NCBI RefSeq assembly: GCF_021028995.1
Contig: NZ_JAJJZG010000004.1
Span: 124,001-188,000, forward strand
Direction of reading: 5' to 3'
Length of the DNA: 64,000 nucleotides
Source: Halobacterium sp. KA-4
Lineage (GTDB): Archaea; Halobacteriota; Halobacteria; Halobacteriales; Halobacteriaceae
The notes under the pieces were generated by a model. The model did not search any database. It was given only the letters and a program-made list of their open reading frames with translations, and was not told the DNA's origin. Positions 58,769 through 64,000 of this stretch are shown here, in pieces; the stretch's first letter is position 1; every line of letters begins with the position of its first letter. The position numbers and the translations under genes are program-made.

Positions 58769-58820
58769 CCGTAGTCGGAAATATGGGTTCTCTATTGAGT
58801 AGAAGACTGAACCGCACGGG

Positions 58821-58843
58821 TAGTACAGACAAGAGATTTACAG
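58821..58843 (+). repeat. Intergenic repeat copy R0 (promoter part only)
   Basis: The core AGTACAGACAAGAGATTTAC (58823-58842) matches the right end of copies R2 and R5. ATTTAC is centred about 27 bases before the ATG at 58865, so it acts as that gene's TATA box. The left part of the repeat is not preserved here. Confidence 0.6.
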
Positions 58844-58864
58844 GTTCGGGGAGTTTGTGTCCGT

Positions 58865-59314
58865 ATGGCTACGACAGTAACTGTCCGCCTTTCTGTCGTC
58901 GTAGGCGTCATATTACTCGTTGCTGGCGGCGGATTCTACGGGTATGGGGCCTACGATGCAGCCACGTACGACCGTGAAGCCGGTATCGACGTTGCTCCGA
59001 CTTCTACAGCCAACGCAACCGCAACGAACTTCTCTGACCTCCCCCGGGAGCAACAGGCGTTGTTCTTGCTTGCCGTTGAGCCCGGAGAGGACAGTTACTA
59101 CATGACCACTGACGAAGAGTTACAGGATCTCTCCTCTGAAATGCCCTCCCATGTACGGTACGACACCACGATCTACGACGTCTCAGGAACCCACACCGAC
59201 GCCGTTGTAGGAATGTACACAATCCCCTTCGGCATGCTTCTCGCCGCAATTGGTAGCGTGACACTGCTCGGTGCAGGCGCAACATCCATCCTCCGGAAGG
59301 TACGAGACTGGTAG
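58865..59314 (+). CDS. Membrane protein, DUF7979-like
   Basis: A 149-aa protein with a hydrophobic helix near residues 9-30, an extracytoplasmic stretch with ATNFSDLPREQQALFLLAVE, a middle region (GEDSYYMTTDEELQDLSSE), and a second helix near residues 118-140. The DLP-x-x-x-Q-x-x-F-x-x-A motif recurs in the partial gene at 63755, so the two are paralogues. The pattern resembles a family I recall as DUF7979; function unknown. It shares its start region (MATT) and 40 bases of upstream DNA with the gene at 60075. Confidence 0.7.
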   Translation: MATTVTVRLSVVVGVILLVAGGGFYGYGAYDAATYDREAGIDVAPTSTANATATNFSDLPREQQALFLLAVEPGEDSYYMTTDEELQDLSSEMPSHVRYDTTIYDVSGTHTDAVVGMYTIPFGMLLAAIGSVTLLGAGATSILRKVRDW

Positions 59315-59370
59315 CGGTATTCAATCCCTACAGCCAGCCTCGATGTGGTGAGGCACTTCGGCAAGTATAG
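59314..59370 (+). repeat. Intergenic repeat copy R1
   Basis: The core reads CGATGTGGTGAGGCACTTCG then GCAAGTATAG (59341-59370), closely related to R2 and R3, preceded by a shorter left part (TTCAATCCCTACAGCC). The next gene's TATA box lies 30 bases further on and is not part of the repeat. Confidence 0.65.
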
Positions 59371-59415
59371 GAGTTCTCTAACCGTTATGTACTTACAGAA
59401 AACTTATTGGTGCAA

Positions 59416-59433
59416 CGCCACTTCCAATTGGCG
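59416..59433 (+). promoter_or_regulatory. Inverted repeat at the start of the membrane protein gene at 59433
   Basis: CGCCA (59416-59420) and TGGCG (59429-59433) pair around an eight-base loop and end at the first base of the GTG start. A TATA-like CTTATT at 59403-59408 lies 28 bases before the start. The repeat could occlude ribosome entry or be a regulator site. Confidence 0.35.
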
Positions 59434-59960
59434 TGAATAACCGGGTTCGAGCAGCCCTCATTACTGTGCTTACAGTCGCTCTCCTGTACGCTCTCGCCAC
59501 GATTGAGGGCCGTCCAGATGCGACCGGCCTCTCGAACCTCGGGTCCGCCCCAGCAATCGGAGTAACGGGAATCGTTTTTGGAGTGGCTAGTTACGTTACA
59601 ATCACGGGGAAATACGGCCCAGAATCGGTCCTAGAAGCCGCGAGTGTTGTCACGTTAATGTATGGTGGCGCTGCCCTTGGACTCACTGAGTTCAGCCTGA
59701 AGTTGCTGGACAAGGAGATTCTCTTCTTAATATTCGGCTTGGGAACGATACCCGCTGCAGCTGGCGGAGCGTTCGCAGCAGGATCATATGAAGACGAACT
59801 GCTGTTTGGGAGCGTGTTCGTTTTGGTATCGCTAGGTTCGGCGTTCTATCTCCGCGGCGACCTGCTGAATCGAGTAGTCCTGCACACTTGGGCGATGGTT
59901 CCCGGGTTCCTCCTCGCCTTTGTGTACACGAGTGCGGCGAACGCCGGCGCATTTGAGTGA
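59433..59960 (+). CDS. Membrane protein of unknown function (five to six helices)
   Basis: A 175-aa integral membrane protein. Hydrophobic segments cover residues ~8-24, 38-58, 68-85, 94-115, 122-140 and 150-168. Conserved-looking motifs are absent. Short charged loops (LKLLDKEIL, GSYEDEL) separate the helices. Translation starts at GTG, with a TATA box at -28. Third-position GC is lower than in phr. No family recognised. Confidence 0.65.
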   Translation: MNNRVRAALITVLTVALLYALATIEGRPDATGLSNLGSAPAIGVTGIVFGVASYVTITGKYGPESVLEAASVVTLMYGGAALGLTEFSLKLLDKEILFLIFGLGTIPAAAGGAFAAGSYEDELLFGSVFVLVSLGSAFYLRGDLLNRVVLHTWAMVPGFLLAFVYTSAANAGAFE

Positions 59961-59970
59961 ACCATCTTGC

Positions 59971-60053
59971 CCAACTGTCACGCCAAACCCAGTTAGGGAG
60001 AACCCGTCCCGATGTGGTACGGCATTTCGTTAAGTGCAGACAAGACATTTACA
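59971..60053 (+). repeat. Intergenic repeat copy R2 with promoter
   Basis: The left part CGCCAAACCCAGTTAGGGAG is followed by the core CGATGTGGTACGGCATTTCG (60010-60029), TTAAGTGCAGA (60030-60040) and CAAGACATTTACA. The CATTTACA (60046-60053) lies 26 bases before the ATG at 60075, serving as its TATA box. Confidence 0.7.
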
Positions 60054-60074
60054 CGTTCGAAGGATTCTACCCGT

Positions 60075-60635
60075 ATGGCTACGACAGAGGCTAAATCACT
60101 CATCATTCTAGGTCTCACCAGTAGTCTTCTCACCATTCTTGGTCTTTGGCCGGAATATGGGCCGTTAAATGCTGACCTACCGGAATTAGCGACGGTTCTG
60201 CTCCTTCTGATTAATCTCGGATTTATGGCAACTGGTTGGTTCTGGTACCAAGAGCGTGCATCCGGTCAGATTCGCTACGAGCAGATACCAGCGCTCGTTA
60301 TCAGTCTGGTCGGTATCACGGGTATCGTCGGGAGTCTTGTCGTGTTTCAGCCGTGGCAGTATACTGGGATGGCCGCCGGTCTATTCTCCATTTCTACCGG
60401 TCTGTTCGTTATTCCCGGTATCGGGCTGAGTCTCAGTGGCTATCTCTGGTTTCGTCACCAGGAGATGCGGTATCCACTTGCACTGTTGGTTGGGCTACTG
60501 GCTGTCGGTCTCTTATACATCATCCGTCAGCGATTAGATATTATTATTCAAATTCCGCTCTTTGCGATTGTCGTTGTGGCCGTCTTCCTTCTGCCAGTTG
60601 TCGTAGTTCTCCGCGTTATTCACCATAGCCATTAG
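60075..60635 (+). CDS. Membrane protein of unknown function
   Basis: A 186-aa, strongly hydrophobic protein with about six helices. It begins MATTEAKSLIILGLTSSLLT and ends in a basic tail (RVIHHSH). A soluble loop (WYQERASGQIRYEQIP) falls near residues 58-73. The start ATG is fixed by the repeat-borne TATA box 26 bases upstream; the upstream in-frame ATG at 60012 would lie inside the repeat. GC content is close to 50%, well below the flanks. No family recognised. Confidence 0.65.
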   Translation: MATTEAKSLIILGLTSSLLTILGLWPEYGPLNADLPELATVLLLLINLGFMATGWFWYQERASGQIRYEQIPALVISLVGITGIVGSLVVFQPWQYTGMAAGLFSISTGLFVIPGIGLSLSGYLWFRHQEMRYPLALLVGLLAVGLLYIIRQRLDIIIQIPLFAIVVVAVFLLPVVVVLRVIHHSH

Positions 60636-60650
60636 CAAAGTGACTATCCC

Positions 60651-60731
60651 ACCCTACTGAGCGGCTATTTCACTCTGAACCAACTGGTGAGAACCGGCCT
60701 CGATGTGGTTCGTCATTTCGCTAAGTACAGG
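60651..60731 (+). repeat. Intergenic repeat copy R3
   Basis: The longest clear copy. It begins CCTACTGAGCGGCTATTTCA (60653-60672), continues CCAACTGGTGAGAACCGGCC, then CGATGTGGTTCGTCATTTCG (60701-60720) and CTAAGTACAG. Its left third matches R5 and its right half matches R2. It lies between the membrane protein and PPOX genes; the TATA-like part is not retained. Confidence 0.7.
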
Positions 60732-60800
60732 TGCGGAACTAATCGCTGAATAGAATCGATGGCCAAAACATGCTCGGAGGATTAGCGAGAATGTATCGGT

Positions 60801-61256
60801 ATGACTACTGAGCTATCGACGGAAGACTGTGAAACATTACTCTCTGAGTCGGGTGTTGGCGTCTTAGCGCTCACTGACGGCACAGAAGCGTACTCGATTC
60901 CCGAATCATTCGGCTACAATGGGGAGACACTGTACTTCCAGTTCGTCTACAAACCAGATAGCAAGAAAATGGCCTTTCTCGAGACGACAGAGACCGTGAC
61001 GTTCACGGTCTACGACGAACAGCCAGCACAGAGCGTCCTTGTGCAGGGCCCAATCGAACCTGTCCCTGAAGAGGATGAAACCAAGGCTGCCACAGCAATC
61101 GCGGAAAACGCCTCCATTCCAACTCTGAACATCTACCCCGAAGCAACACCTGACGAGGTCAGCATGGACTACTACCGCTTACCGCCAACCTCAATTACCG
61201 GCCGTCAGTTCAACGCATTCACCCCCACATCCGACGACCAGCAACACTCTCACTGA
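60801..61256 (+). CDS. Pyridoxamine 5'-phosphate oxidase-like flavin/F420 protein
   Basis: A 151-aa split-barrel protein. Segments such as LLSESGVGVLALTDGTEAYS, IPESFGYNGETLYFQFVYKP, DSKKMAFLETTETVTFTVYD and SVLVQGPIEPV match the small PPOX-fold proteins that bind FMN or F420. Not pyridoxine oxidase itself; the actual substrate is unknown. The ATG at 60801 follows copy R3 by 70 bases. Confidence 0.85.
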   Translation: MTTELSTEDCETLLSESGVGVLALTDGTEAYSIPESFGYNGETLYFQFVYKPDSKKMAFLETTETVTFTVYDEQPAQSVLVQGPIEPVPEEDETKAATAIAENASIPTLNIYPEATPDEVSMDYYRLPPTSITGRQFNAFTPTSDDQQHSH

Positions 61257-61329
61257 CCGAGTGTTCCATACCCAATCCAGCTAGTGAGAAACGGCCCTAA
61301 TGTGGGCGGTGCATTCGGTAAGTACAGAT
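61256..61329 (+). repeat. Intergenic repeat copy R4
   Basis: ACCGAGTGTTCCATACCCAA leads into TCCAGCTAGTGAGAAACGGCC, then TAATGTGGGCGGTGCATTCG and GTAAGTACAGAT (61319-61330). It lies between the convergent ends of the PPOX gene and the histidine kinase, so this copy cannot be a promoter of either. Confidence 0.65.
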
Positions 61330-61332
61330 GCA

Positions 61333-63582
61333 CTATTCAGCAACTGTTTCTACGCCAAGAATTTCGAATCTGGCTCCGTTCGTGGGACTGTCAGTGACAC
61401 GAATCTGCCAGTCGTGGGCTTCAACAATCTGTTTGACGATGCTCAACCCGAACCCAGTGCCATCCTCACTTGTTGAGTAGCCAGCTCTAAAGACATCCTC
61501 ACGCTCGTCGGCCGGGATTCCTTGCCCATCGTCCTCAACGTAGAATCCATCGTCGAGTGCACCGACCGTTACGGTTACGTCCTCACCACCGTGGTCGATA
61601 GCGTTACGAATCAGATTCTCAAACAGCTGTTTGAGCCGACTCTTATCTGCCCGAACGGTGCGGTTGATGTCGGTGATAAGCGTGGCAGCACCCGTCTCAA
61701 CGGTTGCCCAACACTCCTCTACCAGTACATCGAGCGCGACCCGGTCGAAATCCGTAACGGCATCTCCCTCTCGGGCTAACGATAGAAGTTCATCTATCAG
61801 CGTCCGCATGCGCTCGTGGGCTTGCTCAATTGCGTCCAAATGTTCACTGTCGCACTCCGTAGCCACCAACTCCAAACGCCCTTCGGCAACAGTGAGCGGA
61901 TTCCGAAGATCGTGACTGACGATACTGGCGAACTCTTCGAGTCGGTCGTTTTGCTCGGTGAGTTCCTGTTCACGAGCACGGAGCTGCTCGGTTCGTTCTA
62001 ACTGTTCAAGCGCTGTCGACAGTCCGCCGGCCAGAATTTCACCCAGGAGTGCGTCCTGTTCGTCGAAGGTCTCTGGGGACGATGACCCGGCGAGCAAAAC
62101 CCCGTATTTACCGAGCGGCAAGATAAGCTCGCTCCGAATCGCCGTGGCTGGATTATACCGGTCCGAATCCTCGTGGACATCATCAACAGAGAGTGTCTCC
62201 CCGCTTTGATAAACCCGCCACGCAATACTGTCACCACCCGAAAATGTGGGTGGCTCGCCAATAAGATCGTATACGGCGTCCGTGGATGCCACCGGAACGA
62301 GCCCATCGACATCATCGTCGTACAGATGGATCGAATTCGCTTCTAATTCCAGCAGATCCCTCATCGTCTCCACACCGATCTCGGCAACCTCCTCCCGGGT
62401 GTCCGCACTCATCAACTCCTGGGTGACCCGATTTAATGCTTCGAGTTGCCGTTCACGGGTCTTCCACTCATCAACATCGAGGTGAATGCCAACCGCACGG
62501 ACTGGCTCACCGTCGTCATCTCGCTCAACAATTTTGCCGAGATCCCGAATCCACTTCCACTCACCATCAGCCGTTCGCATTCGGTGTTCGGTGTCGTAGT
62601 AGTCCGTTTGCTGCTGGCGATGCGCCTCAAGGGCAGCAGTCACGTCATCAACATCGTCCGGATGAACCCGCGACTCCCATGTGTGGAGGTGTGGGTCGAG
62701 TTCGTCAAGCGTGTAGCCGAGCATCTCCGCCCACTGCTCGTTGAACTCAACTTCATCAGTCGTCATGTCCCAATCCCACACGCCGAGGTTCGCGCCTTCG
62801 ATTGCGAGTTCGAGACGTTCCTTGAGCCTCTCGATTTCTTCTATCCGCTGCGTTCGCTCAGTGATGTCCCGCGAGACGACCATAAACCGGTCACCATCTC
62901 CCACTGGGAGGCGAGTAAGGTGAACTTCGACAGGAAACCGTGTTCCGTCATGCGTCTCGAACTCCGTTTCGATTCGTTTCCGATCTCCAACGTCCATTCC
63001 ATCCCAAATGGCCTGTAATTCGTCTGGCTCGATTCCCTGATCGATGTCCCAGACTTTCTGCCCGACAATCTCGTCTTTCGGTTGGTTGAACGCCTCACAG
63101 AAGTGCTGGTTGACATCGACGATAGTCCCGTCAGTGGTATGAATATCGATCATATCAGGAGAGCTTTCGAAGAGGGCTTCGAGACGGGCTGTGGTCTGTT
63201 TGAGACGGTTCTCACGCTCTTTGGTTTCCGTAATGTCGCGCACACTCACGACGTATCCGCCAATCGCGGTCGCCGTTTGGTTACTCCCTCTGGTCTCAAG
63301 CCAAATCCATGAGCCATCCTTGTGCCGGTAGCGAAATTCATCGGTAACGACCTCATCGTCTTCGGCGTTGAGGATTTCAGCGAACGTCTCACGAACTTGC
63401 TGTTGATCGTCGGGATGGACGTGTTCGAATACCTGATCACCGACACGCTCAGCAGGCTGATACCCAGTGATACGCTGTACAGACGGGCTTTCATACAGAA
63501 TATCGCCTGACTCACCCACGATGAGAATCCCATTAGAGAGATGCCTAACGAGTTCCTGGTATTTCTCTTTCGGCAACTCCAT
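61333..63582 (-). CDS. PAS/GAF sensor histidine kinase
   Basis: A 749-aa soluble kinase without membrane helices. The N-terminal part has three PAS domains with PAC tails (about 1-120, 125-245, 255-380), followed by a GAF domain (about 390-540). The kinase core has HisKA-type SIVSHDLRNPLTVAEG with phospho-acceptor His near residue 555, then N box NLIRNAIDH, G1 DDGQGIP and G2 GTGFGLSIV. No receiver domain or response regulator lies nearby; haloarchaeal kinases of this kind often work with separate regulators. Start is the ATG at 63582; a TATA-like AAGAGATTACAA (minus) near 63589-63600 lies upstream. Confidence 0.93.
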   Translation of the reverse strand: MELPKEKYQELVRHLSNGILIVGESGDILYESPSVQRITGYQPAERVGDQVFEHVHPDDQQQVRETFAEILNAEDDEVVTDEFRYRHKDGSWIWLETRGSNQTATAIGGYVVSVRDITETKERENRLKQTTARLEALFESSPDMIDIHTTDGTIVDVNQHFCEAFNQPKDEIVGQKVWDIDQGIEPDELQAIWDGMDVGDRKRIETEFETHDGTRFPVEVHLTRLPVGDGDRFMVVSRDITERTQRIEEIERLKERLELAIEGANLGVWDWDMTTDEVEFNEQWAEMLGYTLDELDPHLHTWESRVHPDDVDDVTAALEAHRQQQTDYYDTEHRMRTADGEWKWIRDLGKIVERDDDGEPVRAVGIHLDVDEWKTRERQLEALNRVTQELMSADTREEVAEIGVETMRDLLELEANSIHLYDDDVDGLVPVASTDAVYDLIGEPPTFSGGDSIAWRVYQSGETLSVDDVHEDSDRYNPATAIRSELILPLGKYGVLLAGSSSPETFDEQDALLGEILAGGLSTALEQLERTEQLRAREQELTEQNDRLEEFASIVSHDLRNPLTVAEGRLELVATECDSEHLDAIEQAHERMRTLIDELLSLAREGDAVTDFDRVALDVLVEECWATVETGAATLITDINRTVRADKSRLKQLFENLIRNAIDHGGEDVTVTVGALDDGFYVEDDGQGIPADEREDVFRAGYSTSEDGTGFGLSIVKQIVEAHDWQIRVTDSPTNGARFEILGVETVAE

Positions 63583-63636
63583 TATTGTAATCTCTTAATC
63601 ACTAACCGGCAAATAACCCTTGTATTCCATACGCAA

Positions 63637-63731
63637 TCCTACCGAGCGGCTGTTCCACGCCAAATCCAGTTTGTGAAAACCTGCTTCCTCGGAGTCAGTG
63701 AATCGCTAAGTATAGACAAAGCACTTTACGG
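63637..63731 (+). repeat. Intergenic repeat copy R5 with promoter
   Basis: CCTACCGAGCGGCTGTTCCA (63639-63658) is followed by CGCCAAATCCAGTTTGTGAA, then a variant centre and TCGCTAAGTATAGACAAAGC (63703-63722) and ACTTTACGG. The ACTTTACGG box is 28 bases before the GTG at 63755. It carries both the R3-like left third and the R0/R2-like right end. Confidence 0.7.
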
Positions 63732-63754
63732 GATAATATGAAAGATAGCGAACA

Positions 63755-64000
63755 GTGGCAGAGAATCACGCTCAGCGCTGGCCGATTCTGCTAGTCGGTA
63801 TCGGCCTCGGGATGGTGGTTTTCGGCGCACAAGCCACGCACTTTGCGAATTTGATCGAGTTCACGTACAGTGTGGAGGCGACAACACAGGCCGCAGCAAC
63901 CGAAGCCGCCAACGTCTCAGACCCCGGTGTTGACGTCATCTACCACTTCACAGACCTTCCAGCAACCGCACAAGACGCCTTCCGCCAAGCACTCGAAGCC
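63755..64000 (+). CDS. Membrane protein, paralogue of the gene at 58865 (3' truncated by window edge)
   Basis: The frame runs from a GTG at 63755 to the window end (82 codons visible). It opens with VAENHAQRWPILLVGIGLGM, the start of a membrane helix, and later reads DVIYHFTDLPATAQDAFRQA. The DLP-x-x-x-Q-x-x-F motif matches the protein at 58865. A TATA-like CTTTACGG is centred 28 bases before the GTG, in repeat copy R5. An ATG at 63738 only opens an 18-codon frame and is rejected. Confidence 0.7.
   Translation, partial: MAENHAQRWPILLVGIGLGMVVFGAQATHFANLIEFTYSVEATTQAAATEAANVSDPGVDVIYHFTDLPATAQDAFRQALEA

Follow-up and report, generated by a model that had tools for sequence, protein, structure and literature searches.

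The window analyzed here is a 64,000-nucleotide stretch of Halobacterium sp. KA-4 (contig C44:124001-188000 of a 3.34-Mb genome in 55 contigs), and it ends in an island of small genes separated by copies of a ~100-bp repeat, R. R is a conserved, directional joint between gene cassettes: related loci break off at it, the cassettes are common to several arrays and genomes, and the chromosomal site of the island is empty in congeners. At slightly better than even confidence, we regard the island as a gene-cassette array built from non-autonomous transposon units of the IS5 family (mobile insertion cassettes), with R as the fused right-end/left-end joint. The two halves of R match the inner ends of an IS5-type element, and the cassette rows therefore look like mobile cassettes fused end to end. 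This likely origin of the repeats in transposon ends goes beyond an initial annotation of the island, which had noted six related intergenic sequences (R0-R5) in one orientation.

R as a directional boundary between cassettes

R consists, in order, of a left segment E (CTACTGAGCGGCTGTTTCAC), a middle that contains an inverted-repeat-like GCTGGTGAGAACCC, and a right segment S (TTCGGTAAGTACAG); its core is GGTGAGAACC. A starting search with R3 alone already gave strong matches at unrelated loci, and a sequence-only profile model was built from 24 copies, among them R2-R5 and not R1. Run on the whole genome, this model recovered R3 (E-value 2e-23), R4 (9e-18), R5 (6e-17), and R2 (8e-14), all near-complete copies of one repeat. 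The initially described six repeats are thus a genuine family, and all six point in the same direction; R1, however, is a partial copy (2e-4), and R0 is the right half alone (AGTACAGACAAGAGATTTACAGG, 89% to R2). About 30 copies were found in the host at an E-value <=0.001, and the left core CTACTGAGCGGCTGTTTCAC occurred at 25 genome sites at <=3 mismatches, compared to one for a reversed-pattern control. Aligned, 101 distinct copies give the consensus GCACACCTACTGAGCGGCTGTTTCACTCCAAATCCGCTGGTGAGAACCCGCCTCGATGTGGTGAGTAGCTTCGGTAAGTACAG, in which many positions exceed 1.5 bits. A structured RNA was rejected, since R had no Rfam match at an E-value <=0.1 and its alignment no fold: complementary covariation was absent over the 101 distinct copies, and RNAalifold predicted zero pairs for the 24-copy alignment.

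Of 57 pairs of neighboring R copies, 54 shared an orientation; the median distance between neighbors was 505 bp, the size of a single gene, and arrays reached nine R joints. Copies consisting of E only (left-only) or S only (right-only) were located at array edges. The genes between R copies had a median length of 124 aa; 48% of them encoded membrane proteins, compared to 23% of the genes further away (p=0.0008), and their GC content was 0.54 rather than 0.61. Relative to R, these genes lay in either direction (S side, 38 same and 39 opposite; E side, 41 same and 46 opposite). On contig C14 (C14:25514-26801; L030:13508-14808), four R copies follow one another at intervals of about 270-330 bp in which no gene could be called with confidence, and we read these intervals as very short or non-coding cassettes.

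R marks breakpoints. With flanks of 400 bp, 36 of the 104 full copies shared one flank with a locus that differed on the other side, and none of the 104 had a counterpart in which both flanks were shared and R was absent, but independent two-flank cases were few. Ends of high-scoring segment pairs fell at R in 96 of 725 instances, against 25.8 under a shifted null (sd 9.1, max 62 of 500).

The exchange of cassettes was most evident at the site of the island itself. In two congeners (G009 and G012) a photolyase gene and an MFS gene meet tail to tail and the site is empty, while in the host the two are separated by six genes and R0-R5. The array of genome G011 at this site is longer; the host genes C2, C3, and C6 (the last cassette) recur in it, whereas C1, the PPOX-fold gene, and the kinase do not. 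The first cassette of the G011 array has a relative in G008 (94%), and C3 has one in the plasmid pNRC200 (86%). Relatives of the PPOX gene were found in Haloplanus ruber (82% aa), Halopenitus (81% aa), Halarchaeum (89% DNA), and pNRC100, and a 99-bp remnant of the 3' end of the kinase gene adjoins another R on contig C14 (94%). Five genomes belonging to several families (L112:437-2078, L151, L209, L217, and L241) carry a cassette with fni (type 2 isopentenyl-diphosphate isomerase) and R that is 99.6-100% identical among them over 1.6-3.6 kb; identity breaks off sharply within S, close to its border, at one edge and immediately ahead of E at the other. This identity marks a recent transfer between families. 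Genes and repeats belong together, as the initial annotation had supposed. Its further proposals fared less well: given the relatives of C2, C3, and the PPOX gene elsewhere, the island did not grow mainly by duplicating its own genes, and R, far from being tied to these gene families, stands between small genes of many unrelated kinds throughout the order.

Several observations concern neighboring sites and arrays. In G002 the photolyase-MFS site holds a VapBC-like pair (L136:2480-3430). The photolyase 3' end recurs at the flanks of this pair as a near-repeat of 18-19 bp (CGCGCGGCGACGACTRAGC), which looks like the outcome of an att-type integration. A SWIM zinc-finger gene and a short gene lacking annotation (MARRALLTDRERELIEGG) adjoin a recurrent insertion hotspot (L231, L235, L224, L226, and L246-L249); it holds differing cassettes in G002 and G005, and its elements often carry tyrosine recombinases. 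Near-identical genes for PadR-type regulators recur close to R arrays of Halobacterium and Natrinema (L030:8305, L032:3443 and 14279, L152:12719). In G038 (L118, L159, L160), contigs C3 and C5 contain large duplicated blocks, and an identical 213-bp segment with an E end sits where these blocks join, which points to plasmid recombination there.

Relation of R to the ends of IS5-family elements

Elements bounded by inverted repeats and 8-bp duplications contain E and S as sub-terminal motifs, each at a fixed distance from the end. The inverted repeat GGCTCTGTTGAAATCC, which bounds IS5-family elements with a DDE_Tnp_1 transposase, was present within about 65 bp of 8 of the 39 solitary E ends (0 in control windows) and of 6 of the 42 solitary S ends (1 in control windows). 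Its offset to E, read as the reverse complement, was 23 bp at 12 of 13 sites, and that to S was 29-31 bp at 10 of 10 sites; the terminal motif occurred 33 times, and its reversed control not once. Because of these fixed distances, E and S are most simply taken as sub-terminal parts of the right and left unit ends, respectively. The same terminal inverted repeats were common to the elements L110, L214, L215, L234, L242, L374, and L375 and to a transposase-encoding insertion sequence (IS). Annotation and DDE_Tnp_1 matches point to IS5 for the inverted-repeat elements, whose ends are those of its ISHxa2/ISHla2-like group; an IS6-type origin of the inverted repeat, suspected at first by analogy with IS26, was rejected, as PF13610 was found in only two of five genomes and not in the host.

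Perfect 8-bp target duplications were present at four elements. L110 (genome G021, 2.2 kb) runs from inverted repeat through a DDE transposase gene, a GNAT gene, R, a cassette gene, and E to the second inverted repeat and is flanked by GATAAATC; it is the only one of the four that encloses an R. L242 is a 786-bp unit (duplication TCCGATTT), and L374 and L375 contain an annotated IS5 transposase and extra genes (duplications GCACTTGG and AGAAGCTC). L214 and L215 are units without transposase that follow the order terminal inverted repeat, S, gene, R, gene, E, terminal inverted repeat, with one R inside. At three other loci (C8:23383, C5:63518, and L031 at about 8600), plasmid tbp (TATA-binding-protein) genes have next to them an S end that carries a degenerate GGCGCTGKTGARAYCC repeat.

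These features suggest how R arose. A free unit would consist of the inverted repeat GGCTCTGTTGAAATCC, about 27 bp, S, the passenger gene or genes, E, 23 bp, and the inverted repeat. In arrays, R would be what results when the right end of one unit is joined to the left end of its neighbor: a compact fusion of constant form from which one inverted repeat has been lost. A DDE transposase of the IS5 type, acting in trans or from the first slot, would move single units or entire arrays between the outermost ends, and R would stay as the joint where cassettes are exchanged. The array in the window was probably assembled by the same fusion of IS5-type units, though its outer ends have no such inverted repeat.

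Several results weigh against this origin. The middle of R is more constant over the 101 copies than random end fusion would lead one to expect, which suggests a function of its own, and the exact crossovers differ by comparison (about model position 9, 33-36, 50-57, or 81-90). Most solitary E or S ends have no inverted repeat nearby, and no perfect duplication was seen at the flanks of L214, L215, L234, or L152. At the outer ends of the array in the window, the photolyase and MFS junctions, neither a GGCTCTGTTGAAATCC-like repeat nor any other significant inverted repeat was found, so that the last move of this array is unproven and its last insertion unexplained; a second type of inverted repeat spotted by eye at the photolyase array was not significant and was discarded. 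A passive scar would not have so conserved a middle as R does, and half-copies also break off close to the GAGAACC core; we therefore retain a second, clearly less probable reading, that R is an active, dedicated recombination site of an unrecognised archaeal gene-capture platform, with the conserved middle as the crossover core for an unlinked recombinase or transposase. If true, small membrane proteins of haloarchaea would circulate in a cassette economy resembling that of integrons, one whose evolution began with transposon ends.

Alternative explanations and known systems

The alternative that survives best, although we consider it unlikely, is that R is an attachment site of integron-like cassettes, used by a site-specific recombinase supplied in trans. 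A circle with one R would cross over near the GAGAACC core into an R (giving an array) or a look-alike site (giving a solitary cassette) and leave half-sites at the edges. Such half-sites do cluster, as right-half copies start and left-half copies stop around model positions 46-59 at many loci; the R consensus contains three GGTRAGTAC-like direct half-sites, G005 and G002 hold different cassettes between the same flanks, and arrays that run in one direction with no recombinase linked to them are reminiscent of attC clusters lacking an integrase. However, R showed no covarying fold in either set of copies, and transposon ends at fixed distances already account for E and S. Generic tyrosine recombinases were found in 14 of 14 genomes, but none was consistently near arrays and none was on contig C14, and no search with an IntI-specific model was made. 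The integrase family nearest one solitary cassette occurred in 330 of 392 genomes and did not track R. A linked tyrosine integrase as the mover was accordingly rejected, being not generally adjacent and, in the case of one candidate family, near-universal.

Homologous recombination between dispersed copies of R, as passive relics of transposon ends, might alone shuffle the intervening genes. Haloarchaeal plasmids recombine readily, and the breakpoints lie inside R at varying positions. We nevertheless find this improbable, because R copies share only about 70-80% identity and are poor substrates, because essentially identical neighbors change sharply at identical points, and because single insertions at empty sites and 8-bp duplications are left unexplained. 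Less probable still is an independently mobile short repeat inserted between genes, similar to the Haloquadratum SMRs (PMC3119063) or to miniature inverted-repeat transposable elements. Its length of ~100 bp and weak outer inverted repeats would fit, but the strict orientation within arrays and the 36 one-flank breakpoints, set against no R-free site with both flanks conserved (few cases being independent), do not. The least probable explanation, a terminator-plus-promoter unit of a co-regulated gene set, was rejected because gene orientation relative to R is random and half-copies stand at array edges without the other half, even though TACAG stands about 38 bp ahead of the start of several co-oriented genes, together with a TTTA box some 27 bp upstream, and intergenic repeats of halovirus HF2 carry promoters (PMC8707807).

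Compared with known systems, R combines features of several. Mobile insertion cassettes and transporter IS are IS ends that carry passenger genes and no transposase. R units share with them related terminal inverted repeats, passenger genes without transposase, and, at four elements, 8-bp target duplications; they differ in being tandem, with a compact and highly conserved fused-end joint that has a single inverted-repeat-like stretch and is widespread across the order, and in that the array in the window has no outer inverted repeats. The pdif sites of Acinetobacter plasmids are 28-bp Xer sites of alternating orientation, whereas R is about 100 bp long and always the same way round; both bound accessory gene modules by short sites (PMC6449649). 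As in integrons and integrase-less attC clusters, including archaeal ones (PMC9668308), directional repeats separate single-gene cassettes, content varies at a fixed site, most arrays have no linked recombinase, and cassettes are exchanged as units. Unlike attC sites, R does not fold into an imperfect hairpin, gene orientation is random, and no integron integrase was found, an IntI-specific model not having been used; the text on archaeal integrons does not mention halobacteria or halophiles (PMC9668308). The SMRs and PATEs of Haloquadratum are likewise transposase-free haloarchaeal repeats of about 100 bp, and PATEs were described as fused transposon ends (PMC3119063). R, in contrast, is a boundary rather than an insert, has no near-terminal palindromes, and probably derives from an IS5-type element, whereas PATEs come from IS605-type elements. 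The nearest described kinds (archaeal integrons, SMRs/PATEs, and HF2 promoter repeats) each differ from R in a tested feature, and no description of this repeat was found in the literature searched.

The array in the window and its distribution

Homology to the G011 locus on the left ends at 58786, 18 bp past the photolyase stop, and the left boundary together with R0 (S end only, GGTAGTACAGACAAGAGATTTAC) occupies 58787..58864; all features are on the + strand except the kinase. C1 (58865..59314) encodes a small membrane protein of 149 aa with a FSDLPREQQALF motif and is followed by R1 (59334..59376, model 57-99). C2 (59433..59960), a membrane protein gene with an orthologue in the G011 and G008 arrays, precedes R2 (59965..60054, model 16-108), and C3 (60075..60635), with six predicted transmembrane segments and relatives also in G011 and G012, precedes R3 (60643..60747, model 6-110). 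Within R3, E lies at about 60653-60674, followed by the core and by S at about 60718-60730. The PPOX-fold gene (60801..61256; PF12900, E-value 2e-22) is followed by R4 (61243..61343, model 10-109), and a PAS/PAS/PAS/GAF/HisKA/HATPase histidine kinase gene on the - strand (61333..63582), opposite to R, by R5 (63626..63731, model 4-109). C6 (63755..64000; 218 aa), the last cassette here and in the G011 array, continues to contig position 188,411, and the array extends beyond the window end to about 188,486.

The gene content was as initially annotated, with small, mostly membrane proteins (C1, C2, C3, and C6) that match no Pfam family above its cut-off, a PPOX-fold gene, and a PAS/GAF kinase. 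The lower GC of the island was likewise borne out: GC at third codon positions was 0.51-0.63 in the array genes compared to 0.844 (sd 0.053, n=66) in the remaining genes of the window, and the island is compositionally foreign. C1 and C6 do share the DLPxxxQxxF motif, but their proposed paralogy is unproven and was set aside, as the BLASTP similarity (E-value 0.007 over 26 residues outside the motif) was not significant. A DLP-like motif occurred in 5 of 164 genes near R and in 0 of 465 far from it, in a post hoc comparison. A search of the genome collection with the C6 protein gave no match.

Beyond the host, the R model matched 16 of 59 relatives and 55 of 392 genomes sampled from Halobacteriales, belonging to 26 of 95 genera, and the consensus matched 29 plasmids in PLSDB, among them pNRC100 and pNRC200 of Halobacterium salinarum. 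A virus-borne element was rejected, as the viral contigs searched contained no R-like pattern and a phage search gave no match; the left core alone matched two viral contigs, and the 14-base S pattern was too short for a judgement there.

A single searchable joint of ~100 bp now flags cassettes in more than a quarter of the sampled genera and in model plasmids. Haloarchaeal megaplasmids and islands are rich in small orphan membrane proteins, and R bears on how such genes spread. By tying the arrays to an identifiable IS5-type element, R opens cassette capture to direct testing in an experimentally tractable organism.

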